Assembly (NCBI GenBank): GCA_937128505.1
Contig: CAKZMM010000029.1
Location: 1 to 33,481, forward strand
Direction of reading: 5' to 3'
From: an uncultured Thermogutta sp.
GTDB taxonomy: Bacteria > Planctomycetota > Planctomycetia > Pirellulales > Thermoguttaceae
DNA length: 33,481 bases
The translations under genes were made by a program, and so were the position numbers. Each line of letters begins with the position of its first letter. Position 1 is the first letter of the stretch. Of the stretch, positions 15,537 to 33,481 are shown piece after piece. The notes beneath the pieces were generated by a model that worked only from the letters and a program-made list of their open reading frames with translations, was not told where the DNA came from and ran no database searches.

Positions 15537-16751
15537 ATGGCCACTGTCCAGGCGGACGATAAAGGGTTGGAGCTTCTCAAGCAATTGGCTCAATCCCCCG
15601 AGGGAGAATCCATTTTAGGTTGTATGCAATGCGGCATGTGCGGCGGGAGTTGCCCCCTGGGGTATGCCATGCGGTTTACTCCGCGGAACATCATCCTTCA
15701 GGCTCGATCCGGTAGGCTCCAGAGCGTTTTGGAAAGCCCATCGATTTGGGTTTGTGTCGGTTGCTACAACTGCTCATACCGTTGCCCGCGGGGGATTGAA
15801 TTGACGGATCTCCTCTGGCCAGCCATCCGCGACCGCGCGATGCAGGAGGGCTATCAGCCGCCGGCGGAGCTTCAGAAGGCACTTCAGAACACTTATATGT
15901 ATGGCAACGCGTTGGGCAAATCGCCCAAGAAGCGGACGGAATGGGCCAAGGATTTGGATGTTCCGATTCGCGACTTGTCGCAGAATCCGGAGCCGGTGGA
16001 GGTTCTATGGTTAGTGGGGGATTATCCGGCCTATTATCCAAGAAATCAGGTCGTTACCCGCGACTTTGCACGCATTCTTACAGCGCTGGGGGTTCGCTGG
16101 GGAATCATCGGCAACAAGGAAAAGACCATCGGCGATTGTGAACGGCTTTCGGGCGAGGAAGGGCTTTTCGAATCGTTGATCGAGTACAACATCCAGACGC
16201 TGCGTTCCTATGAGTATGAGAAATTGATTGTAACCGATCCGCATTCGCTCAATTCCCTCCAGAATATTTACCCGAAGTATGGGGGGCGTTTTCCAGTGGA
16301 GCATTACGCCACGTTTTTGGCCGACCGCCTTGAGGAGCTCAAAGGGTTATTGGTCCGCCCGTTGGAAGCCGTGGTTACTTACCATGATAACTGCTGCTTG
16401 TCGCGGCGGTGTGGGTGCTACGAAGCTCCGCGGGACTTACTGCGGGCTATTCCCGGGGTGCAACTGGTGGAAATGCGGCGCAATCGCGAGCACGGGCTTT
16501 GCTGCGGAGGCGGAGCCGGCGGAATGTGGCTCGATGGCCATATCGTGGAATTAGGCGGGCACCGTCTGTCGGACGAGCGGATTGTAGAGGCAGCGGCTAC
16601 GGGGGCGAAGATCTTGGCCGTCTCTTGCCCGTTCGAGCTCTCGCGGTTTGAGGATGCCGCGAAAGTCAAGGGTTTGGAAGACAGGATCGTGGTGCGGGAC
16701 ATTATCGAGCTGCTGGCGGAGTCGATGGATCTCCGCGAGAAAACCCGTTAA
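15537..16751 (+). CDS. Soluble HdrC/HdrB-like (HdrD-type) iron-sulfur protein with CCG domain
   Basis: A 404-residue cytosolic protein with GGAG 7 bases before the ATG. Two [4Fe-4S] motifs come first: C29/C32/C35/C39 (CMQCGMCGGSC) and C73/C76/C79/C83 (CVGCYNCSYRC), as in HdrC. A degenerate first CCG half follows (LWLVGDYPAYY...KEKTIGDCERLSGEEGLF), in which the usual cysteines are mostly lost. The intact second CCG half has C286, C322-C323 and C364, the ligand pattern of the non-cubane cluster in HdrB/HdrD. Unusually, the loop reads HDNCCLSRRCGC instead of the common HDPCYLGRYNG, adding Cys287, 292 and 294. It is probably the partner that accepts or donates electrons for HdrA encoded downstream, replacing separate HdrB and HdrC, or a partner of EtfAB encoded next. 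It is a clear paralogue of the soluble half of the 19101-21341 protein. Confidence 0.85.
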   Translation: MATVQADDKGLELLKQLAQSPEGESILGCMQCGMCGGSCPLGYAMRFTPRNIILQARSGRLQSVLESPSIWVCVGCYNCSYRCPRGIELTDLLWPAIRDRAMQEGYQPPAELQKALQNTYMYGNALGKSPKKRTEWAKDLDVPIRDLSQNPEPVEVLWLVGDYPAYYPRNQVVTRDFARILTALGVRWGIIGNKEKTIGDCERLSGEEGLFESLIEYNIQTLRSYEYEKLIVTDPHSLNSLQNIYPKYGGRFPVEHYATFLADRLEELKGLLVRPLEAVVTYHDNCCLSRRCGCYEAPRDLLRAIPGVQLVEMRRNREHGLCCGGGAGGMWLDGHIVELGGHRLSDERIVEAAATGAKILAVSCPFELSRFEDAAKVKGLEDRIVVRDIIELLAESMDLREKTR

Positions 16752-16933
16752 GGGCGTGGGTACCAGGGGAAGGATGGTTACAGGCAGCTCATCCGCTTTT
16801 GCTTCTGGGAGTTTGGGGATGTAACCGGTGGTCACAGGCATTGGCAGCAAGTGGTGGTAGGGAGTCGAGTCGGCGGTGCAACGATTGGTTTGCAGGGTGT
16901 AGCCGGCCAGCCGCATGATCGGGAGGATAGGGA

Positions 16934-17707
16934 ATGAATATCATCGTGGTGCTGCGACAGGTTCCCGACCTGATCGAACAACTGGAGTTAGACGCGGACG
17001 GAAAATCGCTGGATTGGGGGGCTGCTAGTTACATCATCAATGAATCGGACGATCACGCCTTGGAGCAGGCCCTGCTTTTGAAAGAGGCCGGGGGAGGCAC
17101 GGTGACGGTTGTCGGTTTGGATTTCGGCAATATCGAAGGATCACTTCATACGGCGGCTGCCAAGGGAGCGGATCGGTTGATCCGGTTGGCGTGGGGTGAG
17201 GATGCTCCCCCGCGGCTTTCTCATGCGGCGGCACTTTATGCGGCGGCAATCAAGCCGCAGAATCCGGACTTGGTTCTGGTGGGAGTGCAAGCTCACGACG
17301 AGTGGGAAGGGGTGCTAGCTCCGTGGTTAGCCGCAACGTTGGGGCTGCCTTATGTGGGGGTGATTCGCGGGGTATGGCGGACCGAAACCCCGGGTAAAGT
17401 TCGGGTACACAAGGAATTTCCCGGGGCGGTCATGGCGGAGTTTACCATGAAGTTACCCGCGGTTCTGGGGATTTTGGGTGCCGAAAAACCGCCGCGATAT
17501 GTGCCGGTTAGTCGGATTCGGGCGGCTGCCAAGTCGGCCCAAATTGTCGATCAGAATGTGGGGGTACAGCCGCCGGCGGTCGGCGCGCAAATCGAGCAGC
17601 TCTACTTCCCTGCAAAGGGAGAAGGAGCCACGATGCTTACCGGTTCCGCGGAGGAGGTTGCTGCACGCATTGCCGAGCTTCTTGCCGAGAGGGGGTTGCT
17701 GCGATGA
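16934..17707 (+). CDS. etfB: Electron transfer flavoprotein beta subunit
   Basis: A 257-residue EtfB, normal length. Recognisable parts are the start MNIIVVLRQVPD, NESDDHALEQALLLKEAGGGTVTVVGLD, the AAAKGADRLIRL segment, DLVLVGVQAHDEWEGVLAPWLAATLGLPYVG in the nucleotide-binding core, and the C-terminal arm ending AARIAELLAERGLLR. A GGAGG site lies 7 bases before the ATG. With EtfA it forms a cytosolic FAD/AMP (or two-FAD) carrier that passes electrons between dehydrogenases and a membrane quinone reductase. The stop overlaps the etfA start (ATGA at 17704-17707). Whether it is a bifurcating Etf cannot be decided by eye. Confidence 0.93.
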   Translation: MNIIVVLRQVPDLIEQLELDADGKSLDWGAASYIINESDDHALEQALLLKEAGGGTVTVVGLDFGNIEGSLHTAAAKGADRLIRLAWGEDAPPRLSHAAALYAAAIKPQNPDLVLVGVQAHDEWEGVLAPWLAATLGLPYVGVIRGVWRTETPGKVRVHKEFPGAVMAEFTMKLPAVLGILGAEKPPRYVPVSRIRAAAKSAQIVDQNVGVQPPAVGAQIEQLYFPAKGEGATMLTGSAEEVAARIAELLAERGLLR

Positions 17708-18681
17708 GTAGCCAGGACATTTTGGTAGTCGGCGAAGTCCAAGCCGGAGCCTTGGCCGAGATTAGTTTGGAACTTTTGGGAGCCGCGCGTCAATTGGCGG
17801 ATCAGACGGGCGGTCAGGCGGTTGTGCTGCTGATGGGGGAAAAGCTCGAGGCGGCTTGCGATGCTCTGGGAGGGGCCGATCGGGTGCTGCTGGTCGAAGA
17901 TCCTCGGCTTGCTGCATATAACTCGGAGCTTTATGTGCAATTATTGGACAGTGTGGTAGCGCAAGAGGATCCGCGGGCCATTCTGATTGGGAGCACATCG
18001 ATTGGTTGGGATTTGGCTCCGCTTTTGGCAGCCCGCCGTGGGGTGCCGATGGCGGTCGGCTGCCGACGGGCCTGGATCAAAGATGGCACCGTGTGTGCCA
18101 CCGCGAGTATTTGCGGGGGGAAGCTGCTGGCGGATCTTGCGCTGGACAAGTCGCCGGCAGTGCTGATGGTGCTGCCGGGAAGCTTCAAGCCGCCGGAGGC
18201 CCGAGGCACCCCGGCGCGCGTTCGCTTGAACCTTTCGGTCGGGGATCCGCAGGCGGTTCAATTTGAAAAGTTGGTTCTGCCCGAGGCCGGGGATATCGAT
18301 ATCACCACGCAGGAAATCTTGGTGGGGGTCGGCCGCGGGATAGGTCAGCAAGAGAATTTGGAAGTGGTGGAGCAATTGGCCGCGGCTTTGGGTGGTGCGG
18401 TCTGCGCAAGCCGCCCGGTGGTCGATCAGGGTTGGTTGCCCCCAACTCGACAGGTGGGCAAATCCGGCATGACCGTCAAACCGAAATTGTACTTGGCTTT
18501 GGGAATCAGCGGCGCCCCCGAGCATCAGGAGGGAATGGCGGGATCGGAACTGATCATCGCCGTGAATACCGATCCGCGGGCCCCCATCTTCGAGATTGCC
18601 CATTTTGGGGCCCAGATTGACCTCATGGACTTGGTGGAGCCGTTGACGGAGGTCATTCGGGCCAAGAAGGCAGCCGGGTAA
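17704..18681 (+). CDS. etfA: Electron transfer flavoprotein alpha subunit
   Basis: A 325-residue EtfA, normal length. The C-terminal FAD domain is clear: GVGRGIGQQENLEVVEQLA, then SRPVVDQGWLPPTRQVGKSG, LYLALGISGAPEHQEGM, IIAVNTDPRAPIFEIAHFGAQIDLMDLVEPL. These match the family's FAD-contacting SR..VD.GW, QVG.SG and GISGA..H motifs. It pairs with EtfB, to which it is translationally coupled. Genes for the HdrD-like proteins on either side suggest this Etf delivers electrons to, or takes them from, the membrane cytochrome b/Fe-S protein encoded from 19101. No acyl-CoA dehydrogenase lies nearby, so its electron source here may be the Hdr/hydrogenase side. Confidence 0.93.
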   Translation: MSSQDILVVGEVQAGALAEISLELLGAARQLADQTGGQAVVLLMGEKLEAACDALGGADRVLLVEDPRLAAYNSELYVQLLDSVVAQEDPRAILIGSTSIGWDLAPLLAARRGVPMAVGCRRAWIKDGTVCATASICGGKLLADLALDKSPAVLMVLPGSFKPPEARGTPARVRLNLSVGDPQAVQFEKLVLPEAGDIDITTQEILVGVGRGIGQQENLEVVEQLAAALGGAVCASRPVVDQGWLPPTRQVGKSGMTVKPKLYLALGISGAPEHQEGMAGSELIIAVNTDPRAPIFEIAHFGAQIDLMDLVEPLTEVIRAKKAAG

Positions 18682-19100
18682 GAAGAGCTTTGAGCCCCGG
18701 AATGGATACGCGGGATGTTTCGACGATATTTATTTTCGCGGCGATGATATTTTCGCGGCGATTGAGGACCAGCAAACGGAGTGATGCGAGCGAATCATCC
18801 TTTTGAACGATTTTCCGAAGATGAGGCTGTGCTAAAGGTTGGGTGGTGAATAGCGTTCGGTTTTCCGTGCCGGATCGCGACCGATTTTCCTGCGGCTTGT
18901 GGGAAGCGGCTTGTGTTTTCATTTTGAGAATCAACTTGTGTGCTCATTTCAGGCTGTTTTTGGAAACCAGCTTGTGTGTTCAAGGGAAAGTCGAATCGTG
19001 TACGAACATTCACCGGCCGGGCGTTCGGCGGTTTGTCGGTGTGGTGGTTCGGCGGGTTAACTGCGAACTAAGGTCAATCCAGCGACGAGGCACCTGAGCT
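18682..19100. other. Spacer inside the cluster with short repeats
   Basis: A 419-bp gap between etfA and the membrane Fe-S protein. No gene is supported. ATTTTCGCGGCGAT occurs at 18732-18745 and 18749-18762. A CTTGTGTKYTCA word occurs three times at about 18910, 18935 and 18971. GAGG at 19087-19090 is the probable ribosome site for the next gene. Confidence 0.5.
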
Positions 19101-21341
19101 ATGCCGTTTTCGCGGCCCTTGATGTGGAATGTACCGCACCTGTCGGAGTGGCTCCTGTACGGGCTAACTCCGCTGGTGGTCATTGCGTTTGTGGCGGGGG
19201 TGGTCTGGCGGGCGCGCAAATGGGCCCTGGGTGTAGCGGAGCCTGCTAGCCCCTCCGCCATCGAACGTTTAAAGCAACTGATTCAGCCACGGGTGCTCGT
19301 GGATTTCATCAAAAATGCGTTTTTCCAATGGCGGCTCGTTCCCGATTCATTTAGTAGTTGGATGCACCTGACGATTTTCTGGGGAATGGTGCTCCTTTTC
19401 CTGGGGACAGCCATCGCCACCGTTGATCAGGATTTTCTCAACTTGCCCTTCGATTGGCAGCTTTTGCAGGGGAATATCTATCGGTTGTTCGAATTGGTCT
19501 TGGATTTAGCGGGTGTGGCGTTACTGGTGGGATTAGCCCTTGCCGCCTATCGGCGGTATGTGGTCAAGCCGGAGAGGTTGGGACCGAATAGGCGTGCGGT
19601 AACTCGATGGGATAATTTTCCGTTTTTGGGAATTTTGGCCGCGATTGCCATCAGCGGTTTTTTGGTCGAAGGTTTGAGGTTAGCCGAGGGCTTTCGGCTG
19701 GAAGCACAGTTGCGGCAGGTAGCCGCGGCGGAGGGTTCGGGGAGTGGGTTGGTTGCCGAAAGGAAGGAGATTTTGCACCGCTGGGGATATGAGGAAAACT
19801 TGCGGCACCTCGGGACCGAGCGGCAAGAAGCGGAATTAGAACGCGTAAGCCAACGGGCGGTCGTTTTCCCGGCAGCTCCGTGGGCACCGGTGGGCTACGG
19901 GTTGGGGAAGATTTTCGCAGCAATTCCCGAGGGGGTGATTCGCACTTTGCATCAGCTCCTATGGTGGGCCCATGCTCTGCTTGCTTTCGGCTTCATTGTG
20001 GCGGTGCCGTTTACCAAGGCGTTTCATCTGATTTCTTCGCCGATTAGCATCCTTTACCGCAACACGGGTCCTGTAGGAAGGCTACCGGTGGTGTCGGAGT
20101 CGGGAGCTCAGACAATCCGGCAATTGACGTGGCGGCAATTGCTACAGGCGGACGCTTGCACTTGGTGTGGCAAGTGCCAGGAGGTTTGCCCTGGCTACAA
20201 TTGCGGCTATGCCCTTTCGCCAAAGGTGCTGGTGCAATCGGTGGATTATGTCCTTCTGCGGACGCCATGGAAGGGGAACGGCCAAGCCGGCAATCTTCAC
20301 GAGGTGATTAGCCCGGATGAGCTTTGGGCTTGCTGCACCTGTCGCGCTTGTGAGGAAATCTGCCCGGTGTGTGTGGAGCATCCGCGGCTGGTGATCGACA
20401 TGCGGCGATCTTTGATCGATCAAGGCAAGGTGGAGGAGGGGGTGCAGGATGCCCTGATGAATTTCCAGCGTTACGGTAACTCCTTCGGGCAATCGCCGCG
20501 GAAGAGGTCTACTTGGGTCAAGACGCTTGATTTTCCCATCAAAGACGCACTGAAAGAGCCGGTGGAATACCTGTGGTTTACCGGCGACTATGCGGCTTAC
20601 GATCAGCGCGTGGTGGAAGTTACGAAGAAGCTGGCCCAAGTGCTGCACCACTTGGCAGTGGACTTCGGGCTTCTGATGGATAAGGAGCAGAATGCGGGAA
20701 ACGATGTGCGGCGGATCGGCGAGGAAGGCCTATTCGACATGCTGCGCCAAAAGAACCTAGAACAGTTGGGTAAGGCGCATTTTGCGGCGGTTTTCACCAC
20801 CGATCCCCACACCTACAACGCCTTGAAAAATGAATACGAGATTTCCGATGGCGAAGGGAACGGTTCTGGAACCGGGCCGTTAGCCGGAAAACCGGTTCTC
20901 CATTACACCGAACTGCTCGACCGCTGGTTGCAGGAAGGAAAACTCGTGCCGAGCGAAAAACTTCAAGGTGTGGCGACCTATCACGATCCTTGCTACCTGG
21001 GCCGATATAACGGCATTTACGAAGCCCCGCGGCGGGTCATCGAGGCCCTGGGCCTGAAGCTGGTGGAAATGCCGCGGAATCGACGCAATAGCTTTTGCTG
21101 TGGCGCGGGAGGCGGACGGGTGTGGATGAAGGATATTCCGGGTATCGAGCGGCGACCGGCGGAACTCCGCGTGCACGAGGCCCTGGCTTTGCCCGGCGTC
21201 CAGCGGCTGGTGGTGGCATGTCCAAAAGACCTAGTGATGTTCCAGGATGCGGTGAAAACGATCGGGGCGGAGGATCGGCTACAGGTCGTCGATATTGCCG
21301 AGTTAGTTTGGCAAGCGGTGGGCTCTCCGGTAACCGCTTAG
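19101..21341 (+). CDS. Membrane cytochrome b/Fe-S/CCG protein, Etf:menaquinone oxidoreductase (EMO)-like
   Basis: A 746-residue fusion. The first 330 residues form a nitrate-reductase-gamma/HdrE-like membrane domain with about five to six hydrophobic segments and candidate haem-b histidines in WMHLTIFWG, LHQLLWWAHALLAF and TKAFHLISS. Then come two [4Fe-4S] motifs, C353/C356/C359/C363 and C411-C421 (CCTCRACEEIC). A degenerate first CCG half and an intact second half follow, with C631 (HDPCYLGRYNGIYEAPR), C666-C667 (FCCGAGGGR) and C707. This architecture is that of membrane HdrD/DsrK-related proteins found beside etfBA, which pass electrons between Etf and menaquinone. A charged 65-residue loop (about 205-270) splits the membrane part. 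Its position after etfBA supports the EMO assignment; an HdrDE-type function with a methanophenazine-like carrier is unlikely in a bacterium. Menaquinone as partner is inference. Confidence 0.85.
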   Translation: MPFSRPLMWNVPHLSEWLLYGLTPLVVIAFVAGVVWRARKWALGVAEPASPSAIERLKQLIQPRVLVDFIKNAFFQWRLVPDSFSSWMHLTIFWGMVLLFLGTAIATVDQDFLNLPFDWQLLQGNIYRLFELVLDLAGVALLVGLALAAYRRYVVKPERLGPNRRAVTRWDNFPFLGILAAIAISGFLVEGLRLAEGFRLEAQLRQVAAAEGSGSGLVAERKEILHRWGYEENLRHLGTERQEAELERVSQRAVVFPAAPWAPVGYGLGKIFAAIPEGVIRTLHQLLWWAHALLAFGFIVAVPFTKAFHLISSPISILYRNTGPVGRLPVVSESGAQTIRQLTWRQLLQADACTWCGKCQEVCPGYNCGYALSPKVLVQSVDYVLLRTPWKGNGQAGNLHEVISPDELWACCTCRACEEICPVCVEHPRLVIDMRRSLIDQGKVEEGVQDALMNFQRYGNSFGQSPRKRSTWVKTLDFPIKDALKEPVEYLWFTGDYAAYDQRVVEVTKKLAQVLHHLAVDFGLLMDKEQNAGNDVRRIGEEGLFDMLRQKNLEQLGKAHFAAVFTTDPHTYNALKNEYEISDGEGNGSGTGPLAGKPVLHYTELLDRWLQEGKLVPSEKLQGVATYHDPCYLGRYNGIYEAPRRVIEALGLKLVEMPRNRRNSFCCGAGGGRVWMKDIPGIERRPAELRVHEALALPGVQRLVVACPKDLVMFQDAVKTIGAEDRLQVVDIAELVWQAVGSPVTA

Positions 21342-21561
21342 ACGCTGTGAAATCAGGCGGTCTTTAGGGTGCTTGGGAGAAGCGCGAAGGTAAGACAATA
21401 AGCGCAGCTTAAAGCGTAGCCTAACGGGAGCCGACGCGTAACTTGAAAGGGGCTTACCGGGCCGAAAAAAGACAACCCGAAAGGTACACCGGCGGAGGCT
21501 CGGCGGTTTTAGCCGTGGTGTGCTAAAAATTTCAAGTGGCAGCCTAGAAAAAGGGTGCGTT

Positions 21562-23562
21562 ATGATCAAGGGCGATAAGAATCTCCGAATTGGCGTGTAT
21601 GTCTGCCACTGTGGCACCAACATTGCCGGAACGGTTGATGTAGAAAAACTTCGCCAATTTGCGGAAACCCTTCCCGGCGTAGTACTGGCTCGGCATTACA
21701 AATACATGTGCTCCGATCCGGGACAGGAGCTGCTGAAGCAGGACATCATGGAGCACGGATTAAATCGGGTGGTCGTGGCCGCCTGTACACCTAGTCTTCA
21801 CGAAGAGACATTCCGCCGGGCCGCCGAGCAAGCGGGGATGAATCGCTTTTTGGTGCAGATTGCCAATATTCGCGAACAGGTGGCGTGGGTAACCGACGAT
21901 GCGGAAACCGCTCTGGACAAGGCGAAAGCGCACGTGGCTGGGGCGGTGCGTCGGGTGGCTTTACATCAGCCGCTAGAACGGCAGTTTGTGCCGATTTTGC
22001 CTCGGGCCCTCGTCGTGGGGGGCGGAATCGCGGGAATCCAGGCGGCTTTGACTTTGGCGGATGCCGGGAAAGAGGTGATCCTTGTCGAGCGCGAGCCATC
22101 GATTGGCGGACACATGGCGATGTTCGATAAGACTTTCCCGACCCTCGACTGCGCCGCCTGCATCCTCACCCCGAAGATGACCGCCGTCAAGAATCATCCG
22201 AATATTCGGCTGCTTACTTATTCCGAAGTGATCAATGTCGAAGGTTCGGTGGGCAATTATCGGGTTCAAATCCGCCGGCGGCCGCGATACATTAAAGAAG
22301 ATTTGTGCATCGGCTGCATGCAGTGTGTGGAAGCGTGCGTGTTTACCCGGGCAAGATTTCCCAATCCGTTTGATCGAGGGCTCGGAATGCGCAAGCCGGT
22401 GTATATTCCCTTCGCGCAGGCCGTGCCACCGGTGCCCTTGATTGACCCGGAAGCCTGCCTCCGCCTAAAACAGGGCAAATGTAAGGAGACTTGCGTGGTA
22501 GCTTGCGGCGACCGCGGGGCCATCGATTTCGAACAACAGGTGATTGTCGAGGAATATCAGGTGGGGGTGATCATTGTGGCGACGGGGTACCAAATCTTTG
22601 ACCCGTCGGTCATCGGCTATTATGGTTACGGCAAATTGCCGAATGTTTATACCGCCTTGGAAGTGGAACGGCTCCTGAATGCCGGTGGACCGACCTCAGG
22701 CAAAGTGCTCCTTCGAGACGGAAGGGTTCCGAAGCGCGTCGCCATCGTCCACTGTGTGGGAAGCCGGGACAAGAAATATCATGCGTATTGTTCCCGGGTT
22801 TGCTGTATGTATGCCTTGAAGTTGGCCCATCTGTTGAAAGAAAAAACGGGGGCCGAGGTCTATAACTGTTACATCGATATCCGCACCCCCGGCAAGGGTT
22901 TCGAAGAGTTCTACAATCGTGTTCAGGAAGAAGGGGTCCATTTCATCCGGGGGAAAGTGGCCGATGTTAGTCCGGTTCCGACAGGCCCGGGTGAAAATGG
23001 CAGTAGCGGTTTGATCATCACGGTGGAAGATACGCTGCTGGGCGAAGTGCGGAAGATTCCCGTGGATATGGTCGTCCTAGCGGTCGCTTTGGAGCCCCAA
23101 GCGGATGCCGACAACGTGCGGCGGATGTTCGGGATCTCGTGCTCGACGGAAGGCTTCTTCCTAGAAAAGCATCCGAAGCTTGCCCCGGTCAACACCGCAA
23201 GCGATGGGGTTTTTTTGGCGGGAGCTTGTCAGGGGCCGAAGGATATCCCGGACACCGTAGCCCAAGCCGACGCGGCAGCGGCCAAAGCGTTGGCCCTGAT
23301 CGACGCCGGTCAGATCGAGCTGGAGCCGAATACCGCATGGATTGACGAGGAGATGTGCTCCGGGTGCAAGACCTGCATTCCGCTGTGTCCGTTTAATGCC
23401 ATCAGTCGGGACGAGGAACGTCAGATCGCGGTCATCGACGAAGCCCTTTGCAAGGGTTGTGGAACCTGTGTTGCGGCTTGCCCATCGGGAGCTGCCAAGC
23501 AAAAACTATTTGGCTTCGAACAAATCGACGAAGAATTAGAAGGGATTTTGAGCTATGTCTGA
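21562..23562 (+). CDS. hdrA: Heterodisulfide reductase subunit A-like electron-bifurcating flavoprotein
   Basis: A 666-residue HdrA. I use the ATG at 21562 because the family starts near RIGVYVCHCGTNIAG; an in-frame GTG at 21520 would add 14 residues. Order: N-terminal domain with VCHCG (14-18), FAD-binding GGGIAG (153-158) with IGGHMAMFDKTFPTLDCAAC after it, a [4Fe-4S] motif C249/C252/C255/C259, a Cys-rich stretch KGKCKETCVVACGDRGAI near 310-325, and a C-terminal two-cluster ferredoxin domain (C599-C609 and C630-C640). In methanogens and some bacteria HdrA takes two hydride-derived electrons from MvhD and sends one to ferredoxin and one to HdrB. It overlaps mvhD by 8 bases (ATGTCTGA), so tight coupling with the hydrogenase is expected. 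The acceptor on the HdrB side is probably the 15537-16751 protein. Confidence 0.92.
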   Translation: MIKGDKNLRIGVYVCHCGTNIAGTVDVEKLRQFAETLPGVVLARHYKYMCSDPGQELLKQDIMEHGLNRVVVAACTPSLHEETFRRAAEQAGMNRFLVQIANIREQVAWVTDDAETALDKAKAHVAGAVRRVALHQPLERQFVPILPRALVVGGGIAGIQAALTLADAGKEVILVEREPSIGGHMAMFDKTFPTLDCAACILTPKMTAVKNHPNIRLLTYSEVINVEGSVGNYRVQIRRRPRYIKEDLCIGCMQCVEACVFTRARFPNPFDRGLGMRKPVYIPFAQAVPPVPLIDPEACLRLKQGKCKETCVVACGDRGAIDFEQQVIVEEYQVGVIIVATGYQIFDPSVIGYYGYGKLPNVYTALEVERLLNAGGPTSGKVLLRDGRVPKRVAIVHCVGSRDKKYHAYCSRVCCMYALKLAHLLKEKTGAEVYNCYIDIRTPGKGFEEFYNRVQEEGVHFIRGKVADVSPVPTGPGENGSSGLIITVEDTLLGEVRKIPVDMVVLAVALEPQADADNVRRMFGISCSTEGFFLEKHPKLAPVNTASDGVFLAGACQGPKDIPDTVAQADAAAAKALALIDAGQIELEPNTAWIDEEMCSGCKTCIPLCPFNAISRDEERQIAVIDEALCKGCGTCVAACPSGAAKQKLFGFEQIDEELEGILSYV

Positions 23563-24073
23563 GAACCGTGTGGCAAACCTAGGGAGCAAGTTCGAACCGA
23601 AGCTGGTCGCTTTCATGTGCAATTGGTGCAGCTATACGGCGTCGGATTTGGCCGGCACCGCCAGGCTCCACTATGCCCCGAATGTGCGGATTATCCGCGT
23701 GATGTGCAGCGGCCGCGTGGATCCGACATTCGTCCTAAAAGCCTTTGCCTTGGGTGCCGATGGGGTGATGATCGCCGGGTGTCATCCGGGCGATTGCCAC
23801 TACTTGGAGCAAAACTACAAAACGATGCGGCGTTACGCGCTACTGAGGTACACGCTCGCCGAGTTGGGGATTGAAGAGGATCGCCTGCGGCTGGTTTGGG
23901 CTTCGGCGGCCGAAGGGCCTCAACTGGCCGAAGCCATCAACGATTTTGTGGAGCGGGTTCGGCAGTTGGGCCCGCTTCGTTGGTCGATCAATTGGCAGGA
24001 AGATGGCCAGCGGGAAAAGGCCATCGAGCAGATTGCTCACGAGCACGCCGAAGCGCTGGAGGTGCCCGTGTAA
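23555..24073 (+). CDS. mvhD: Methyl-viologen-reducing hydrogenase delta subunit (MvhD), Hdr-hydrogenase linker
   Basis: A 172-residue MvhD/FlpD-like protein that carries a [2Fe-2S] cluster and bridges the hydrogenase to HdrA. The motifs are complete: AFMCNWCSY (C22, C25), VMCSGRVD (C51) and GCHPGDCHY (C76, C81), followed by a helix-rich tail. Its ATG lies inside the end of hdrA, an 8-bp overlap, which indicates stoichiometric production of the two. The C-terminal 30 residues (about 140-172) are extra compared with the shortest members. The hydrogenase subunits it should contact are encoded 771 bp downstream. Confidence 0.93.
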   Translation: MSENRVANLGSKFEPKLVAFMCNWCSYTASDLAGTARLHYAPNVRIIRVMCSGRVDPTFVLKAFALGADGVMIAGCHPGDCHYLEQNYKTMRRYALLRYTLAELGIEEDRLRLVWASAAEGPQLAEAINDFVERVRQLGPLRWSINWQEDGQREKAIEQIAHEHAEALEVPV

Positions 24074-24844
24074 ATTTCCCGTGCCGCCAGCGGTGCCTTC
24101 GATGGCAAGGCTGCTTCGCAGAAGAGAGTTCACATCAAGTTGAAGTGGCGATCCCCGGTTGTATCGAAGACAAAGTTCCGCGATACAAACCGGTCCGAGT
24201 TGCGGATCGCAGAGTTCGCTCCTTCAAAAATCGAAAAGAAACTGATATTTTGCGGTTTACCCTTGCAGGAACGGAATCCCGCGGCGTAGTCAGGGCGAAG
24301 TACGTCATTCAGAAAATAGCCAATCAAGGACAGGGAAAAAGATGACTATGTAGAGCGGGAATATCGTTTTTGTCCTTTCAGCCGGACGATGAGGTTGAGC
24401 TTCGGATATTGAAATTTTTCGCCCACATTGCCCGGCGTGACGAGGAATTCCGAAGATTGCCGAAATGGTGGGACTCGCGATTGGTTTATGCTGCTGTTGT
24501 TCTGCATGGTTCGTCGGATGCGGTAAGAGCCTTTTGCAGGGATGACGGGGCCCTCTCGCGAGGTCGTTTCCCCGGTTTCGTGCCGGGCGAACATGATGCA
24601 TGTTCGGAAACTTTGAGATATCGGGAGTGCGTGGGAGTTACCGAGTATTCGGCAGAATCGGCCAAGTTGGAGCCGGTTGTCTTCCTATCCGGAGCGGTTT
24701 GAGGTATTTTTATAGGTAAGTGCTGTCGATATAGGCAAATCCTGTCGATTCCGTCGAGATGATCACCGCTTGGTTGACATTACCGACGCATGCTCAAGAG
24801 CCTTGGGCACGCAGGCATCGATTGTAAAGTAAGGAACCATAAGG
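24074..24844. other. 771-bp gap between mvhD and mvhG
   Basis: No supported gene, although mvhD, mvhG and mvhA are normally adjacent. Frames such as 24370-24702 (+, TTG start) and 24305-24601 (-) have no ribosome site or family features. A 19-bp tandem duplication lies at 24712-24749. A promoter for mvhGA may lie in the last 150 bp; AAGGA at 24831-24835 is the ribosome site for mvhG. Confidence 0.5.
24712..24749. repeat. Tandem duplication, 19-bp unit
   Basis: ATAGGTAAGTGCTGTCGAT (24712-24730) is followed directly by ATAGGCAAATCCTGTCGAT (24731-24749); 16 of 19 positions agree. It lies about 100 bp before mvhG and could hold paired regulatory sites. Confidence 0.8.
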
Positions 24845-25891
24845 ATGAGTCAGACGCACGCGCATGGGCGTAGCAGCGGTAAGCCGAAGCTGGCCTTGTA
24901 TTGGGCGGCTTCTTGCGGAGGATGTGAGATCGCGGTTTTGGCGATCGATGAAAAGATCCTGACCGTCGCCGAGCATTTCGATGTGGTGTTTTGGCCTTGC
25001 GCGGTCGACGGGAAGGTGCGCGACATCGAGAAGATGGCCGACGGCGAAATCCGGCTATGCTTGTTCAATGGGGGCATTCGCACCAGTGAACAGGAGTATA
25101 TGGCGCGGCTTTTGCGGCGGAAATCGCAGGTCTTGGTGGCTTTCGGCTCGTGTGCGCAGGAGGGGTGCATTCCGGGGTTAGCCAATCTGAGCAACCGCGA
25201 GGAGATCTTCCGCACGGTCTACCGCGATACGCTCTCCACCGATAACCCCCAAGGCATCTATCCTCAGCCGGAGACAGCGGTGCCCGAGGGCAAATTGCAT
25301 CTGCCCATCTTTTACGACACGCTCAAGACCCTGGGCCAAACGGTGGAAGTGGACTATTATCTGCCGGGTTGTCCGCCGGAAGCGGAAAACATTTGGGAGG
25401 CTTTGGTCGCGGTTTTGGAGGGACGGCTCCCCGAGCGCGGTAGTGTCATCGGCAAAAACACCACGGTTTGCGATGAGTGCCCGCGCATTCGAGAAGAGAA
25501 GAAAATCAAGCGCTTCAAGCGCATTTGGGAAGTGATCCCAGACCAGGAGCATTGTCTGCTGGAGCAAGGGATCATTTGTTGCGGCATTGCAACTCGGGCC
25601 GGTTGCGGCGCGAAGTGCCCGCAGGTCAACTCGCCGTGCATCGGCTGTCATGGGCCGAACGAAGGGGTGGAGGATTTCGGCGGTCGGCTGCTGAGTGCTT
25701 TGGCTTCCATGATCGACTCGAATGATCCAAATGAAATCGAGCGCATCATTCGCGAGGGAATACCGGATCCGGTAGGCACGCTGTATCGATTCAATTTGGC
25801 CTCCAGCTTGCTCCGGCGTTCGCGGCGGGCGGCGACCGATGGGAACGGACAGAAAGGGGCGGCCGCGTCGAAGCTAGGGGCGGTCTCCTGA
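24845..25891 (+). CDS. mvhG: [NiFe] hydrogenase small subunit, MvhG type
   Basis: A 348-residue cytosolic hydrogenase small subunit without a Tat signal, typical of group 3. The proximal-cluster motif is ASCGGCE (C24, C27), with later ligands in FGSCAQEGC (about 102-108) and YYLPGCPPE (about 175). The C-terminal part has CDECPRIREEKK, IICCGIATRAGCGAKCPQVNSPCIGCHGPNEG, which supplies the medial and distal [4Fe-4S] clusters. Electrons from the NiFe centre pass through these clusters to MvhD and then HdrA. It lies just before mvhA on the same strand, with AAGGA 9 bases before the ATG. The last 40 residues are basic and low in complexity, a slight extension. Confidence 0.92.
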   Translation: MSQTHAHGRSSGKPKLALYWAASCGGCEIAVLAIDEKILTVAEHFDVVFWPCAVDGKVRDIEKMADGEIRLCLFNGGIRTSEQEYMARLLRRKSQVLVAFGSCAQEGCIPGLANLSNREEIFRTVYRDTLSTDNPQGIYPQPETAVPEGKLHLPIFYDTLKTLGQTVEVDYYLPGCPPEAENIWEALVAVLEGRLPERGSVIGKNTTVCDECPRIREEKKIKRFKRIWEVIPDQEHCLLEQGIICCGIATRAGCGAKCPQVNSPCIGCHGPNEGVEDFGGRLLSALASMIDSNDPNEIERIIREGIPDPVGTLYRFNLASSLLRRSRRAATDGNGQKGAAASKLGAVS

Positions 25892-26022
25892 GATAATCAA
25901 CGGGATATTGTGCTAGCGGCTTTCCGTTCGGCCTCGCAAAAGGGTTTGGATCAACCGACCAAGAGAATCAGCCCGGTTTCCTGAGGGCATAACCAACGAG
26001 CATGGCAGGAGTTCAAGCGACG

Positions 26023-27489
26023 ATGAAGCGGATTTCAATCGATCCGATCACCCGGCTGGAGGGTCACGGCAAGATTGACATCTTCTTGGATGATCAGGGC
26101 AACGTGGCCAATGCCTATCTGCAAATTCCGGAGCTGCGGGGCTTCGAGCGTTTTTGCGTGGGCCGGCCGGCCGAGGAAATGCCCAATCTGACCAACCGCA
26201 TCTGCGGCGTTTGCCCCGAGGCCCACCACATGGCGGCGACCAAGGCGCTGGATGATCTGTTTCAGGTGGACCCGCCGCCCACGGCCAAGAAGCTGCGGGA
26301 ATTGTTTTACAGCATCTTCTATGCCACGGATCACACCACGCATTTTTATGCGTTGGGGGGGCCGGACTTTGTCGTCGGTCCGGAGGCACCGCCGCTGGAG
26401 CGGAATATCTTGGGGGTGGTTAAGAAGGTTGGTTTGGAGATTGCCTCCAAGGTGCTCAAGATGCGGCACGACGGGCATCATTTGATCCAAATGATCGGTG
26501 GCCGGCGTGTGCATCCGAATTGGGGATTACCGGGCGGTGTAAGCCGCGGCATCAATGAAGAGCAACGCCAAGAGATCGAGCGACTGGGCCGCGAGGCAGT
26601 GGAATTTGCCCAGTTTTCCTTGAAACTTTTCCACGACGTAGTGCTGGGCAATACGCGCTATGTGGAGCTTATCCGCAGCGACACGTACGTCCATCGGACC
26701 TACAACATGGGAACAGTGGATGCGCAAAACCGCGTCAATTTCTACGATGGTCAGATCCGGGTGGTGGGCCCCGATGGCCGCGAGCACGCGAAGTATCCGC
26801 CGCGGCAATATTCTGAATACATCGCCGAGCACGTGGAGCCGTGGACGTACTTGAAGTTCCCCTATCTGAAGAAAATCGGGTGGAAAGGATTCGTAGACGG
26901 CGTGGATTCCGGCGTTTACAAGGCCTCGCCGTTATCGCGGCTGAATGCGGCCGACGGAATGGCCACGCCGCTGGCCCAGGCGGAGTACGAGCGATTCTAT
27001 GACGCTCTGGGCGGCAAGCCTGTTCATCACACGCTGGCGACGCATTGGGCGCGGTTGATCGAACTTTTGTATGCGACGGAACGCTGGGTCGAGTTGGCCA
27101 CCGATCCGGAAATTACCGGCAAAGAATATCGCGTCCTGCCGACGAAGACCCCCAGCGAAGGGGTAGGCTGCGTGGAAGCGCCCCGCGGAACTTTGACTCA
27201 CCATTATTGGACGGATGAACGGGGCATCTTGACCCGGGTCAATTTGATCGTGGGAACCACGAATAACTACGCCCCGATCAGCATGTCGATTCGCAAAGCG
27301 GCCCAAAACCTCATCCGCGGCGGCCAACTCCGCGAAGGCCTGCTGAATATGGTGGAGATGGCCTTCCGGGCTTATGACCCGTGTTTCGGCTGTGCAACGC
27401 ACAGTCTGCCGGGACAAATGCCGCTGGAAGTTCGCCTGCGGGCTGCCGATGGGTCCGTTCTGCGAACGCTCCGCCAGAACCTCGATTGA
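26023..27489 (+). CDS. mvhA: [NiFe] hydrogenase large subunit, MvhA type (group 3c-like)
   Basis: A 488-residue catalytic subunit read from the ATG at 26023, which has AGGAG at 26007-26011. An in-frame ATG at 26002 would add seven residues but has no clear ribosome site. The family start MKRISIDPITRLEGHGKI is visible. The L1 nickel motif is RICGVCPEAH (C61, C64) and the L2 motif is DPCFGCATH (C454, C457), so all four nickel-site cysteines are present. A tail of about 31 residues follows L2, the region normally removed by a maturation protease in many hydrogenases. The absence of a Tat signal on its partner and the link with mvhD and hdrA place it in group 3c, a cytosolic H2-oxidising enzyme feeding an Hdr complex. 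No hyp maturation genes are in the window. Confidence 0.93.
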   Translation: MKRISIDPITRLEGHGKIDIFLDDQGNVANAYLQIPELRGFERFCVGRPAEEMPNLTNRICGVCPEAHHMAATKALDDLFQVDPPPTAKKLRELFYSIFYATDHTTHFYALGGPDFVVGPEAPPLERNILGVVKKVGLEIASKVLKMRHDGHHLIQMIGGRRVHPNWGLPGGVSRGINEEQRQEIERLGREAVEFAQFSLKLFHDVVLGNTRYVELIRSDTYVHRTYNMGTVDAQNRVNFYDGQIRVVGPDGREHAKYPPRQYSEYIAEHVEPWTYLKFPYLKKIGWKGFVDGVDSGVYKASPLSRLNAADGMATPLAQAEYERFYDALGGKPVHHTLATHWARLIELLYATERWVELATDPEITGKEYRVLPTKTPSEGVGCVEAPRGTLTHHYWTDERGILTRVNLIVGTTNNYAPISMSIRKAAQNLIRGGQLREGLLNMVEMAFRAYDPCFGCATHSLPGQMPLEVRLRAADGSVLRTLRQNLD

Positions 27490-28511: not shown

Positions 28512-29309
28512 CTAGGGTGCTGTGCCAAGTTCCGGATCTTGGATGGGTACACTAGACTTGGCGTGCCCGTTTGCCTCTTTTGAGCTAGTGGTTAGGGCTC
28601 CGAGCACGGCCCCGAGAGCTTTCCCCACAGCCCAAACACTGAGCCCAACGAGTGCCCCAACCGGACCGGCCGCAAGCCCACCGATCGCGGCGGAAGAGAC
28701 GGCCCCGGAGACAGCTGCTGCCGCTTTTGCTTCCCCGGGTTTTGCTCCTGCTTGCAGAGCTCCGTAGTGTACAGCACACTCCATCAAATCGCTAAGCAAA
28801 AGCCAAGGGGTCAGAGCACGGCCGGCTCCTTTGGCAGCTTCTTTAGCCGCGAGTCCACCAGCTTGCCTCAAAGCCATCCATGTAGCACCCGTTTGCGCCG
28901 ACCGAGCAATCGCAGCCTTTGCGAGCCCCTCGCCCAGGGCAAAAGAAATGCTGGTAGCTAAATGACCCAGGCCATCCGAGACAGCCTCCACCTGCGCACT
29001 TCGGCCATCTCCCGTCTTGCACCAGGTCGCGAAATGTTCGCAGTTGTTGAAAATCAGGTCATAATTATCAACCCCTAGCCGGCTCAGTGCCCGTTGTACA
29101 ACTACCTCCGGACGATCACAGAATTCGTAGCGGACAATTTTGATTGCTCGGCCCTTAGCGAATTCTTCAAGGGAGGTCAGGGCGATTTTCGTTTGCCCGG
29201 CGTTCGTCTTCGCATAATGGACCACCTTCCCATCGCCGATGTAGATTCCGTGATGAGCGTACAGGCCACAATTTGCAAAAATGTGATCTCCCGGCTTCAT
29301 GGTGTGCAT
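28512..29309 (-). CDS. LRAT-domain (NlpC/P60-like) protein with glycine-zipper C-terminus
   Basis: A 265-residue minus-strand protein. Residues 4-100 are a lecithin:retinol acyltransferase (LRAT)-type domain: KPGDHIF, HHGIYIGDGKVVHYAK with His20 and His31, and NNCEHFATWCKTG with the nucleophile Cys90. The H-H-C triad is thus complete, so thioester or acyl-transfer/lipase chemistry on phospholipids is possible. Residues 100-190 form amphipathic helices. Residues 196-240 are hydrophobic and rich in Ala and Gly spaced as GxxxG/AxxxG (SGAVSSAAIGGLAAGPVG), a glycine-zipper membrane segment. An AGGTAAG-like site precedes the ATG. Animal LRAT/HRASLS proteins also have a C-terminal membrane anchor. 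It is transcribed divergently from the sigma factor. A lipid-modifying, membrane-active or toxin-like role is inference. Confidence 0.8.
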   Translation of the reverse strand: MHTMKPGDHIFANCGLYAHHGIYIGDGKVVHYAKTNAGQTKIALTSLEEFAKGRAIKIVRYEFCDRPEVVVQRALSRLGVDNYDLIFNNCEHFATWCKTGDGRSAQVEAVSDGLGHLATSISFALGEGLAKAAIARSAQTGATWMALRQAGGLAAKEAAKGAGRALTPWLLLSDLMECAVHYGALQAGAKPGEAKAAAAVSGAVSSAAIGGLAAGPVGALVGLSVWAVGKALGAVLGALTTSSKEANGHAKSSVPIQDPELGTAP

Positions 29310-29628: not shown

Positions 29629-30192
29629 ATGACTCAGCGGCACTCCACGCCTAGAAGCCGATGCACTTGCCCGGTTGAATGCCGGGTTTTGCAACTTCGC
29701 ACTGAATCGGGGGCACAGCAAGATCAGGCTTGGCAAGAGCTTTGGAGCGGATGTATCGCGCCCATGGTCAGCAGGGTCGCCTTACGGCTCGGCTTGAGCC
29801 GACAAATGGAACAAGATTTTTTGGAAAGAGCGCCAGAAAAAATTTGGAGCAGTATAGAAACTTTCAAGCCGACTAGGGGATGCTTTAAGGCGTGGTGCTA
29901 CCGGGTCTTGTTGAACTTTGCGAACGACTTGGGCAGAGAGCGCAAGCGACGCCGCGAAGTTCTGTTCAGCCAGCTGAAGACGTCATCGAAGGCTACCGAA
30001 TCAGGCCAGGAAAAGGATTGGCTGGAACGTGTGTCGCGCGATGAGCCGGTGGACGAGTTGCTCATCCAAAACGAGCCCCTTTCGAAGCGGGAAATCCAAA
30101 ATTTGGAAGAATCTCCGCCTCTCCAACGGATCATTGTGGTGGCTTTGGCAGGGTTGGTCCCACGCATGGATCCTCAGACGTGGGATCGATGA
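29629..30192 (+). CDS. ECF-like RNA polymerase sigma factor, region 2 part, ended by an in-frame TGA
   Basis: A 187-residue product if translation stops at the TGA at 30190-30192. The ATG at 29629 is chosen because AGGAG lies 8 bases upstream; a TTG at 29623 would be too close to it. Residues about 30-112 (QAWQELWSGCIAPMVSRVALRL...EKIWSSIETFKPTRGCFKAWCYRVLLNFANDLGRERKRRR) match sigma region 2: the core-binding helix, the FxxWxxRVxxNxxxDxxR block and the basic end. A variable linker follows, then LQRIIVVALAGLVPRMDPQTWDR, the start of region 4. The rest of region 4 continues in the same frame after the stop (30193-30381). The gene is therefore either a recent nonsense mutant, a sequencing error, or read through. 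TGA is used as a normal stop by etfB and hdrA. Confidence 0.75.
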   Translation: MTQRHSTPRSRCTCPVECRVLQLRTESGAQQDQAWQELWSGCIAPMVSRVALRLGLSRQMEQDFLERAPEKIWSSIETFKPTRGCFKAWCYRVLLNFANDLGRERKRRREVLFSQLKTSSKATESGQEKDWLERVSRDEPVDELLIQNEPLSKREIQNLEESPPLQRIIVVALAGLVPRMDPQTWDR

Positions 30193-30381
30193 CTGGAAGA
30201 TGCCCTCATCCTCCCGCCTTTTCCCCCAGAAACGATTTACCAGGAAGATGACCCGCTCGCGCGCGTCAAAATAGTAGCGGAAGCTTTAAATATGAGTGAA
30301 GCGGCAGTTAAACAGCACTGGTATCGGGGCCGGAAAGTGCTCAAAAAGCTTTTTCGTCCGGAGGAGGGTGCCGATGAGTGA
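30193..30381 (+). pseudogene. Sigma region 4 continuation, same frame after the TGA
   Basis: The 62 codons after the TGA, in the same frame as 29629-30192, read LEDALILPPFPPE...VKIVAEALNMSEAAVKQHWYRGRKVLKKLF, a sigma-70 region 4 helix-turn-helix that binds the -35 element. TGG is the likely ancestral codon (WDR-W-LEDA). The end overlaps the next gene by 8 bases (ATGAGTGA at 30374-30381), a coupling that makes sense only if this frame was translated. No independent start with a ribosome site is present; the first internal ATG is at 30292. Confidence 0.75.
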
Positions 30382-31216
30382 TCCGCTTTCATCAACCAAT
30401 CCCCCTGGTCACAGTGCCGAGCCGACACTGTGCGGAGCTTCCGGGGGGACTCTGCTTGCGGTTTGGAGGAACCTCCCCGACCCCCGCGATCCTCGAGCGC
30501 CTTTAGGCGACACAACAACGATCAAATTGCCGCGAGGGAGTTGGGACCACTTCTTCGAAAAACATGTGCTCAACGAGGGCGAACCGTGGGGAGACCTCCT
30601 GACGCCGACTGTCCTCGAGAAATTGCTCGAAGCATGGTATGGCAGGGAGGAAGACGCGGAGGTGATTTCCGAAGCGGTGGGCAAACTTGAAGCCGAGGTC
30701 CGGGAAAGCCTCAAGCGGCCCATGGTCATCCTGTATCAGGCAAAGAAAGTTGGGGAAAGCCGGCGAAAGGTATGGCTTTTGCAGCTGCCCTCAGGCGCAA
30801 CGCTTTACGCCAAGGCCCGCTCGAAAGCTGCTTACGTTTGCACCTGTTACTTTCCGTCGGTCTCGGGCGTAATAAAGAATGGGCAGAAGAGATGGAAAAA
30901 CGTTGCAGCGAAGCTCGTATGTCGCTACGCACAGCGAACCGAAGACGGACGCCAACTGATACCACCGTCGGCCGGTCATTCGGTATCCATTAAACATGAA
31001 ACTACATCGGAAAAACGCAGAGACATAGTTTTTGTAATATTAAAAACGTGGGGGTTTGCCCTGGATTCCCCGGGATATCCGTGGCGAGGTCGGCTGCCGG
31101 ATTGGGAGGCGGCCAGAAAACCTTCGGCGGCTCGTGAACTGTGTCGTCGCCTCAAACCGAAACGACATTGGTTCGATCAACCGGATAACCCGGACGATAC
31201 ACAACCGTCTAACTGA
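30374..31216 (+). CDS. Protein of unknown function coupled to the sigma factor; possible BECR-type RNase-like domain
   Basis: A 280-residue cytosolic protein. The ATG at 30374 is preceded by a strong GGAGGAGGG (30359-30367) and overlaps the end of the sigma frame, so this start is firm. I do not recognise a family with certainty. Residues about 55-170 contain WDHFFEKH, a helical segment, LKRPMVILYQAKK, then strands KVWLLQLPSGATLYAKA and AAYVCTCYFPS. This order (H..KH, helix, P..I, strands, T-x-Y-F/P) is reminiscent of Barnase-EndoU-ColicinE5/D-RelE-like toxin nucleases. The resemblance is by eye only. The C-terminal third is basic and rich in Trp, Arg and Pro. The gene lies in the same run as the 389-residue acidic protein. 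Confidence 0.6.
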   Translation: MSDPLSSTNPPGHSAEPTLCGASGGTLLAVWRNLPDPRDPRAPLGDTTTIKLPRGSWDHFFEKHVLNEGEPWGDLLTPTVLEKLLEAWYGREEDAEVISEAVGKLEAEVRESLKRPMVILYQAKKVGESRRKVWLLQLPSGATLYAKARSKAAYVCTCYFPSVSGVIKNGQKRWKNVAAKLVCRYAQRTEDGRQLIPPSAGHSVSIKHETTSEKRRDIVFVILKTWGFALDSPGYPWRGRLPDWEAARKPSAARELCRRLKPKRHWFDQPDNPDDTQPSN

Positions 31217-31795: not shown

Positions 31796-32965
31796 ATGAA
31801 TTCTTTCAATGATTACAACAAAACAACTGGCTCAAATGGGGCACGTCACCCTGACCCCATGGGATGGGCGGAAGCGGTCAAAGAGGCGCTCGCCGAGCCG
31901 GCTTTGGAGGAATTCAATCAGCCGGAAACCCAGCCAAGCGCATCAGCACGGGCTGCTGCTTACCAATTGGCGGTAGCGCTTGGACGGTGCCGAGTTTTTG
32001 GCCAGGAGTTGCCCGAGGATCTCGACGGGGTATTGCCCGCGGCGGAAGCGGTTGCTGCTGCCCAACAAGCAACGATCTTGGTCCAGCGGTGGGTAAAAGA
32101 CCTCGGGAATCTGGGAATGCGCTGGGATGAGGCAATTCCGGAGGTGGCCGAGTCCATGTGCGCGGAGGTGCTCGAAGAGCGTATGGAGCTACAGTTCGTT
32201 GTGGAGGCGGTCAGCGAAGCTTATCAAGAGCTTTTGGAAGAGGGCGATGCCGAGGCCGCGCAGCTCGAGGCGGCCCTCGACGAACTGGCAGCCAACGTTG
32301 AGCGGTTCGATGAAGCACTTCAACAGTTGGAAATCTTGGCTCTGCTGTCCACAGTCGTCGACCTACCGTTGCTGGACAATTGGCGGGCTTTTTTGTCGGG
32401 ACCTTATCGTGAAATGCCACCGTGGTGGCTTGATGGCACCTTGGAGGCCGTTGCAGAGGAACGGGATCGGGTCGTCGTGGCTACGCTCCCCCGTGCGGAA
32501 GTGTGGCGACAGATCTCTGCCCAAGAAGCCGGCCGCGCCGCGATTTTGCATCTCTCAATGGTAAGCCATGCTCGGCATGTGGCTTCGCTTATATTTAACA
32601 TCGCGCAGCCAATTGCTGTAGCGGCTGATACGCCGGTGGGAACTCCTGAGGTGCGGGCCCTGCTGCGGTGGCGCTCGCCCGATGGTCGACTGGTGGCGCG
32701 ACTATCCGTTCCGCGCGAGGCTTATCCGGAAGATCGGCTGGTTTTGGAACTCCTTTCCGGCGATGAATCCCGGGAGGCAACTGAGCTAAGGGGTAAAAGG
32801 ATTTGGCTCGGGGGTGTCGAAGCGCAAGTGGAGGAAAAGGGTATCGCCCGAATTCCGCTGGGTCTTCTCCGCGAATCGCTTGGGCAGCCGGAGGCTGAGT
32901 TGACCCTGGAAGTGGAACACCGGGGAGAAAAGTGGCTCGCCCTTACCGGGGACGAAGAGAGCTGA
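31796..32965 (+). CDS. Acidic protein of unknown function, helical N-terminus and beta-rich C-terminus
   Basis: A 389-residue, strongly acidic, Ala/Glu-rich protein without signal peptide or membrane segment. Residues about 50-250 are predicted helical by eye, with heptad-like stretches such as EEGDAEAAQLEAALDELAANVERFDEALQQLEIL that suggest a coiled coil or helical bundle. Residues about 285-385 look like an all-beta domain: ALLRWRSPDGRLVARLSVP, RLVLELLSGD, RIWLGGVEAQVEEKGIARIPLG and ELTLEVEHRGEKWLAL. I do not recognise the family. It follows the sigma factor and 280-residue genes on the same strand but after a 579-bp gap, so it may have its own promoter. A regulatory or scaffold role is possible; no enzymatic motif is visible. 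Confidence 0.7.
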   Translation: MNSFNDYNKTTGSNGARHPDPMGWAEAVKEALAEPALEEFNQPETQPSASARAAAYQLAVALGRCRVFGQELPEDLDGVLPAAEAVAAAQQATILVQRWVKDLGNLGMRWDEAIPEVAESMCAEVLEERMELQFVVEAVSEAYQELLEEGDAEAAQLEAALDELAANVERFDEALQQLEILALLSTVVDLPLLDNWRAFLSGPYREMPPWWLDGTLEAVAEERDRVVVATLPRAEVWRQISAQEAGRAAILHLSMVSHARHVASLIFNIAQPIAVAADTPVGTPEVRALLRWRSPDGRLVARLSVPREAYPEDRLVLELLSGDESREATELRGKRIWLGGVEAQVEEKGIARIPLGLLRESLGQPEAELTLEVEHRGEKWLALTGDEES

Positions 32966-33364: not shown

Positions 33365-33481
33365 ATGGAACAAACGAGTGTTTGTTATAACTGTGGAAAG
33401 AGAGTTAATTCCAACTTGGTTTCGGAGGATCGGGTTATCTTCCACCGCTGTTGCGGTCGTAAATGGACTAAACCGGCATAT
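33365..33481 (+). CDS. Partial CDS, zinc-ribbon-like N-terminus, cut by window end
   Basis: The first 39 codons of a gene that runs off the window. The translation begins MEQTSVCYNCGKRV and continues with HRCCGRKW. The CxxC followed about 20 residues later by CC suggests a small zinc-binding ribbon. An in-frame stop lies four bases before the ATG, so the start is fixed. Its orientation and position suggest it continues the sigma-factor locus. Nothing can be said about the rest. Confidence 0.45.
   Translation, partial: MEQTSVCYNCGKRVNSNLVSEDRVIFHRCCGRKWTKPAY

Follow-up and report, generated by a model that had tools for sequence, protein, structure and literature searches.

An ECF-type sigma factor gene interrupted by a stop codon in a planctomycete operon associated with CARF-Lon proteases and type III CRISPR

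Introduction

The closest described counterpart of the operon reported here is the CalpL/CalpT/CalpS system of Sulfurihydrogenibium in which, according to the parts of the reports available to us, a Lon protease is fused to a cyclic-oligoadenylate sensor of the SAVED type and is encoded together with an ECF sigma factor and a single candidate inhibitor, CalpT, with a link to type III CRISPR (PMC11417357, PMC12751052, PMC11229360). A 23-kDa fragment of CalpT resembles MazF, as stated in the accessible part of PMC9704534. In the type III-E Craspase (CASP-sigma) system with Csx29 and Csx30, a CRISPR-activated protease cleaves a sigma-holding anti-sigma protein; in the sections available to us, the protease in question is of the TPR-CHAT type and associates with Cas7-11 (PMC10028731). 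CARF-Lon fusions have been predicted bioinformatically, with the speculation that they cleave host proteins (PMC9704534, accessible part), and the 2025 CRISPR classification, as far as its available text goes, lists Lon-family proteases among type III effectors (PMC12669027). Among the matches listed in our literature search, which left most subscription papers outside its reach, no paper joined a CARF-Lon protease with a sigma factor.

We analyzed a stretch of 33,481 nucleotides (hereafter, the window) that makes up the whole of contig C29 in the 5.58 Mb, 198-contig draft genome of an uncultured Thermogutta sp. (assembly GCA_937128505.1). The operon that begins in it shares with CalpL/CalpT/CalpS, so far as the available text of those papers allows the comparison, a Lon protease fused to a putative cyclic-oligoadenylate sensor, a co-encoded ECF sigma factor with a candidate inhibitor, and the link to type III CRISPR. 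It differs in that the sensor looks more like CARF than SAVED, in that two extra proteins (called here the partner and p389) stand where CalpT stands alone, in that the partner has no MazF match by sequence, and in that the hosts are planctomycetes. With Craspase, as described in the accessible sections, it would have in common the cleavage of a sigma-holding protein by a CRISPR-activated protease, the protease here being CARF-Lon; the NCBIfam type III-E sigma model gives the window's sigma factor a weak score of 25.7 bits, its cut-off being 100. With the CARF-Lon effectors it shares the PADLOC family CARF_m2--CARF_LON, and it is set apart from them in encoding a sigma factor and two candidate substrates as well. 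We do not assign the operon to the CalpL family; by analogy, its workings look like those of CalpL. The reading that we favor, at a probability of about 0.6, is that the sigma factor is the output of a type III-linked CARF-Lon module and that its gene carries a nonsense mutation here, likely within a wider loss of type III functions.

Results

The first gene of the operon is an ECF-type sigma factor frame, recognized from its translation, domain matches and homologues, at 29629-30381 of the forward strand, on which the other features of the operon within the window also lie. Translation gives an ATG start, a terminal TGA at 30379-30381 and, as the initial annotation had noticed, a single internal stop, the in-frame TGA at 30190-30192, which leaves a truncated product of 187 residues. 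Sigma-70 region 2 lies upstream of this TGA at 29758-29949 (residues 44-107; PF04542, 26.1 bits against a cut-off of 24), where the annotation had placed it. The annotation had also described a "clean" region 4 helix-turn-helix continuing in frame behind the TGA; the continuation holds up, but the adjective was a little generous, as the match at 30274-30336 (PF08281, E 6.9e-4) scores 19.6 bits, below the curated cut-off of 25.7. As the sequence stands, the TGA separates the two regions, so they do not occur in one translated product. On the read-through frame, the ECF superfamily model TIGR02937 scores 42.3 against a cut-off of 42.9. The 62-codon open run behind the TGA is unremarkable by itself (chance about 0.08), and it is homology (38-42% identity to the three closest homologues) rather than the length of the run that establishes the sequence after the TGA as real sigma sequence. 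Divergent from the operon, on the minus strand, is a gene for an LRAT-like protein (28512-29309; PF04970, E 1.3e-26), and farther upstream (15537-27489) there is a row of heterodisulfide-reductase-like, electron-transfer flavoprotein-like and NiFe-hydrogenase-like genes, possibly for an electron-bifurcating complex.

The stop column was compared across 15 sigma homologues: 13 found at E 5e-23 or better in 396 genomes of the order (the window excluded), plus those of loci L113 and L117. Weaker matches of that search, mostly to region 2 only, lie outside this set; within it, the L113 sequence is a fragment beginning at the motif and the G174 sequence is divergent. All carry TGG, for Trp, at the column of the TGA and are free of internal stops, so the initial annotation was right that a Trp codon would fit there. 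Homologues ending naturally at this point, which it had named as the finding that would tell against an interruption, were looked for, and all 15 instead continue; we therefore regard the TGA as a lesion and exclude a natural protein end. Among the strong matches of the 396-genome search, the window's gene alone has a mid-gene stop; a second apparent case, in G144, proved to be a TGA at the normal end of the gene with the Trp column intact. The records of the relatives are labelled Thermoguttaceae, Pirellulales or Planctomycetota.

Identity of the window's sigma factor to those of L109, L110 and L111 is 35-42% before the TGA and 38-42% after it. With conservation similar on either side of the stop, the lesion appears to be young. 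Among themselves, these three share 46-60% before the stop and 65-72% after it, and on these sequence identities the window's part behind the TGA is perhaps slightly more diverged than expected, yet plainly sigma sequence. Relaxed selection behind the stop was undetectable, in that columns invariant among the three were kept in 18 of 35 cases behind it and 36 of 58 before it. A DNA-level comparison within the genus, covering three genomes, gave no match besides the window itself.

The second gene, for the 280-residue partner (30374-31216), is intact; its ATG at 30374, preceded by GGAGGAGG, confirms the annotated 8-base overlap of the next gene with the end of the sigma frame. The third gene, p389 (31796-32965), is also intact and encodes a protein with a helical N-terminal part and a small beta domain whose family is unassigned. 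The last 77 bases of the window (33405-33481) coincide exactly with the opening 77 bases of contig C99 and were found nowhere else in a search of the genome. Because this overlap is exact and unique, we infer that the contigs are adjacent, and the operon appears to continue from C29 into C99, a contig of 3,834 bases with genes for a CARF-Lon protein (883-2340) and Cas6 (2341-3306). Between p389 and the CARF-Lon gene, a short frame (33366-33481, running into C99) encodes two cysteine-pair motifs around a glycine-rich stretch.

The C99 protein matches the PADLOC model CARF_m2--CARF_LON (PDLC01981) over its full length (model positions 6-408 of 408) at E 6.6e-90, and the proteins of three relatives do so at E 4.7e-99, 3.9e-152 and 1.5e-113. 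When a profile of 12 CARF-Lon proteins was searched against the PDB, the middle part matched Lon proteases and the C-terminal part matched Csm6 CARF domains. A Ser and a Lys (169 and 212 in L071) are kept in 16 of 16 aligned sequences (15 of the CARF-Lon type, plus the G040 protein considered below); this pair, with its spacing, we take to be the Lon catalytic dyad. The C-terminal sensor part gave CARF-family and Csm6 matches and no SAVED-named family in the complete match lists for L071 and L075, which come from a model library that may lack CalpL. A second CARF-Lon gene with a p389-like gene lies on contig C176 (L102). At the end of contig C36 (12062-13130; L002) is a second, frameshifted sigma gene, distant from the window's and related to the G003 sigma; it may belong with the C176 CARF-Lon, and no overlap of the contigs was found.

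The gene order sigma, partner, p389, CARF-Lon protease is conserved in relatives, with Cas6 or Cas10 and RAMP genes next in some genomes. All 15 loci with a homologous sigma gene have p389, 14 have the partner (the G009 copy being broken) and 11 have an adjacent CARF-Lon gene; an ECF sigma factor and a Lon-type protease thus share an operon at 11 of 15 loci, and in the genome studied here by way of the contig overlap. The other four are G002, whose CARF-Lon gene is on another contig; G389, where the contig terminates inside p389; G040, considered below; and G174, at whose locus neither partner nor CARF-Lon was found. A Cas6-like gene follows the module in L109, L110 and L111, Cas10 and type III RAMP genes follow it in L115 (the locus of L075; one RAMP is nearest to type III-D Cas5), and Cas10 and a RAMP protein gene follow it in L117, while the module of G026 has no Cas gene visible beside it. 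In a set of 60 relatives, the present genome included, all six with a sigma match (E 1e-5 or better) fall within the nine CARF-Lon carriers (hypergeometric 1.7e-6, a value inflated by physical linkage and shared ancestry). Of the nine loci from the search that also gave L113 and L117, one (L116, with the label Candidatus Harrisonbacteria) contains a frame resembling p389, with sigma, partner and CARF-Lon unmatched in its 5.9 kb. In L209 (G144; 8878-10131) a CARF7-type gene (CARF_DUF2103/RelE-like) diverges from the operon of sigma, partner, p389 and CARF-Lon.

For the partner, neither Pfam nor PADLOC nor NCBIfam gave a match with an E-value of 1 or lower; p389 had none in PADLOC and only sub-cut-off ones in Pfam and NCBIfam, and a sequence search of the PDB gave neither a significant match (best E 1.1 and 0.11, respectively). 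The structure model of the partner (pLDDT 66) has an alpha/beta core, for which the best VIA-align rows, none above Z 4.9, were BrnT-type, CDI and RelE-type toxins, a weak RelE/BrnT-like resemblance; Foldseek returned nothing significant. MazF did not match the sequence of the partner; the fold list of this model has no MazF row either, an absence that carries no weight. Set beside the resemblance of the CalpT fragment to MazF, likewise a toxin fold, the toxin-like rows of the partner model form a parallel that is suggestive only. The fold search with p389 was uninformative, retrieving for the most part widespread helical bundles (Z up to 7.6) and, for the beta domain, one copper-resistance protein (Z 5.6).

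In G040, homologues of sigma, partner and p389 are followed by a protein of 1672 residues in place of CARF-Lon, encoded on the minus strand of contig C55 (L207, 3384-8402) directly behind the trio. The Lon part of the CARF-Lon model aligns with residues 246-311 of this protein (E 1e-5), and the Ser and Lys are again present. After this part comes an ATPase-like region with sub-cut-off matches to AAA_22 (E 1e-4) and NPHP3_N (E 1.9e-4) and a GxxxxGKT motif.

The genome has two Cas10 loci, and both are damaged. At C59 (L108), the Cas10 gene lies in pieces in different reading frames and a TAG interrupts a RAMP protein gene; at C122 (L107), Cmr2 is split by a frameshift and Cmr3 is interrupted by a TAA. 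The fragments of the split genes fall on successive portions of the same family models. In total, 6 of 20 hand-listed type III genes are broken, both cas10 genes included; the list, drawn up after the first lesions had been noticed, comprises sigma, partner, p389, CARF-Lon and Cas6 of C29/C99, the C36 sigma gene, p383 and CARF-Lon of C176, seven genes of C59 and five of C122 (two of them, of 315 and 156 aa, having been named by visual inspection), and excludes the unassigned frames of both Cas10 loci. The stretches around these two loci gave no CRISPR array, one repeat pair excepted: at C122 (6305-6411), two 35-base direct repeats, 83% identical and 72 bases apart, lie beside the broken Cmr genes and are possibly the remnant of an array.

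As controls, 428 reference frames, drawn from 800 kb of the genomes G002 and G026, were used to find orthologues in 400 kb of C83/C84 of the present genome. At an identity of at least 40%, 30 of 32 were open and two were flagged, in both of which the stop falls close to where the match begins and probably precedes the real start of the gene; with a laxer threshold of 35%, 32 were open and 3 of 35 flagged. Stops occurred in none of 40 ABC matches and in 1 of 30 sulfatase matches (a clear pseudogene), and another sulfatase was in two pieces. Judged by these controls, false stops are not widespread in the genome. The 6 of 20 differs from the orthologue controls at p 0.002 by Fisher's test if these are counted as 0 of 32, and at p 0.04 if counted as 2 of 32.

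Discussion

The initial annotation saw a sigma factor with a stop codon that would decide whether the locus is active. Both were there, but the CARF-Lon protease and the type III CRISPR-linked operon around them were missed, and, working from a single contig, it caught the sigma lesion and could not see the other broken type III genes of the genome. By analogy with CalpL/CalpT/CalpS, an infection would lead Cas10 to make cyclic oligoadenylate, which the CARF domain of CARF-Lon would sense; the Ser-Lys protease of the Lon part would then cleave a candidate inhibitor, either the partner or p389, and so free the sigma factor to switch on its presumed regulon. Sigma region 4 is needed for the binding of -35 elements. 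Having lost it, the truncated product should not recognize such elements, and the output of the window's sigma copy is probably dead, that is, the copy is probably silent.

Of the three explanations that the initial annotation left side by side for the TGA, a recent nonsense mutation fits best, base-call or assembly error keeps a share, and read-through gained no positive support. An artefact of the draft, whether from base calling, assembly or a mixture of strains, would mean that the real gene is intact. The assembly is in 198 contigs, and a contig break lies 3.3 kb downstream at the unique 77-base overlap, which can mark trouble with coverage or strains. Against this, the orthologue controls are open in 30 of 32 cases (the other two having the explanation given above), all 40 ABC matches are free of stops, and the lesions, which vary in kind, are concentrated in type III genes. 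We consider an artefact unlikely, while granting it a real chance of being right.

Read-through of the TGA, programmed or tolerated (for example by tRNA-Trp), would yield a little full-length sigma factor, and would agree with the conserved sequence behind the stop and with a next gene that still overlaps the end of the frame. A stop codon followed by C is a leaky context, and a C follows this TGA. However, none of the 15 compared homologues shares the TGA, the other type III breaks are TAG, TAA and frameshifts, and TGA is a common normal stop, ending 8 of the 18 window genes tallied, which also excludes a general TGA-to-Trp code. The genome, estimated to be 98% complete, has 42 tRNA places, among which there is one tRNA-Trp (CCA) and neither a tRNA with a UCA anticodon nor a tRNA-Sec; two matches to the tRNA-Sec model over its cut-off were an ordinary tRNA-Ser and tRNA-Leu, leaving no candidate for a selenocysteine or suppressor tRNA. 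We thus regard read-through as improbable. More improbable still is that the 187-residue product functions alone, for instance by acting as a decoy and titrating the inhibitor. In favor of this, region 2 is undamaged and the start of the next gene still overlaps the frame, but no compared homologue is so shortened, and region 4 has been retained in the sequence as though it was needed until recently.

We conclude that this lineage most likely carries a real and recent mutation, one element in a broader loss of its type III CRISPR signalling. Decay of that signalling is the likeliest reading of the lesions at the sigma gene and the two Cas10 loci, and it is the simplest cause that they could have in common. 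The decay is not general, since partner, p389, CARF-Lon and Cas6 are open. The module has eroded elsewhere, too: in G009 (L112, 9213-9990), the partner gene has stops and a frameshift, and the neighboring sigma and p389 genes are open.

If the weak matches in the single genome G040 are read correctly, Lon would be the constant element and the sensor the part that changes. One could then tentatively, and with some doubt, see in sigma, partner and p389 a portable planctomycete cassette for transcriptional output that would be fired by an adjacent Lon protease, mostly CARF-Lon and, in G040, a Lon-STAND-like ATPase, which might possibly sense phage proteins directly. If true, this would be a third, separately assembled route from protease to sigma factor in prokaryotic immunity, beside CalpL and Craspase, and the loss by point mutation seen here would show that the cassette is dispensable once Cas10 signalling decays.

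CARF-Lon effectors have had no target in the literature that we examined, and the operon offers both a testable target and an output for them. The stop codon itself is of lesser weight, marking a probably silent copy and one more sign of the erosion of the pathway. The operon points to protease-triggered transcription as a strategy that type III immunity uses repeatedly, and not in CalpL and Craspase alone.
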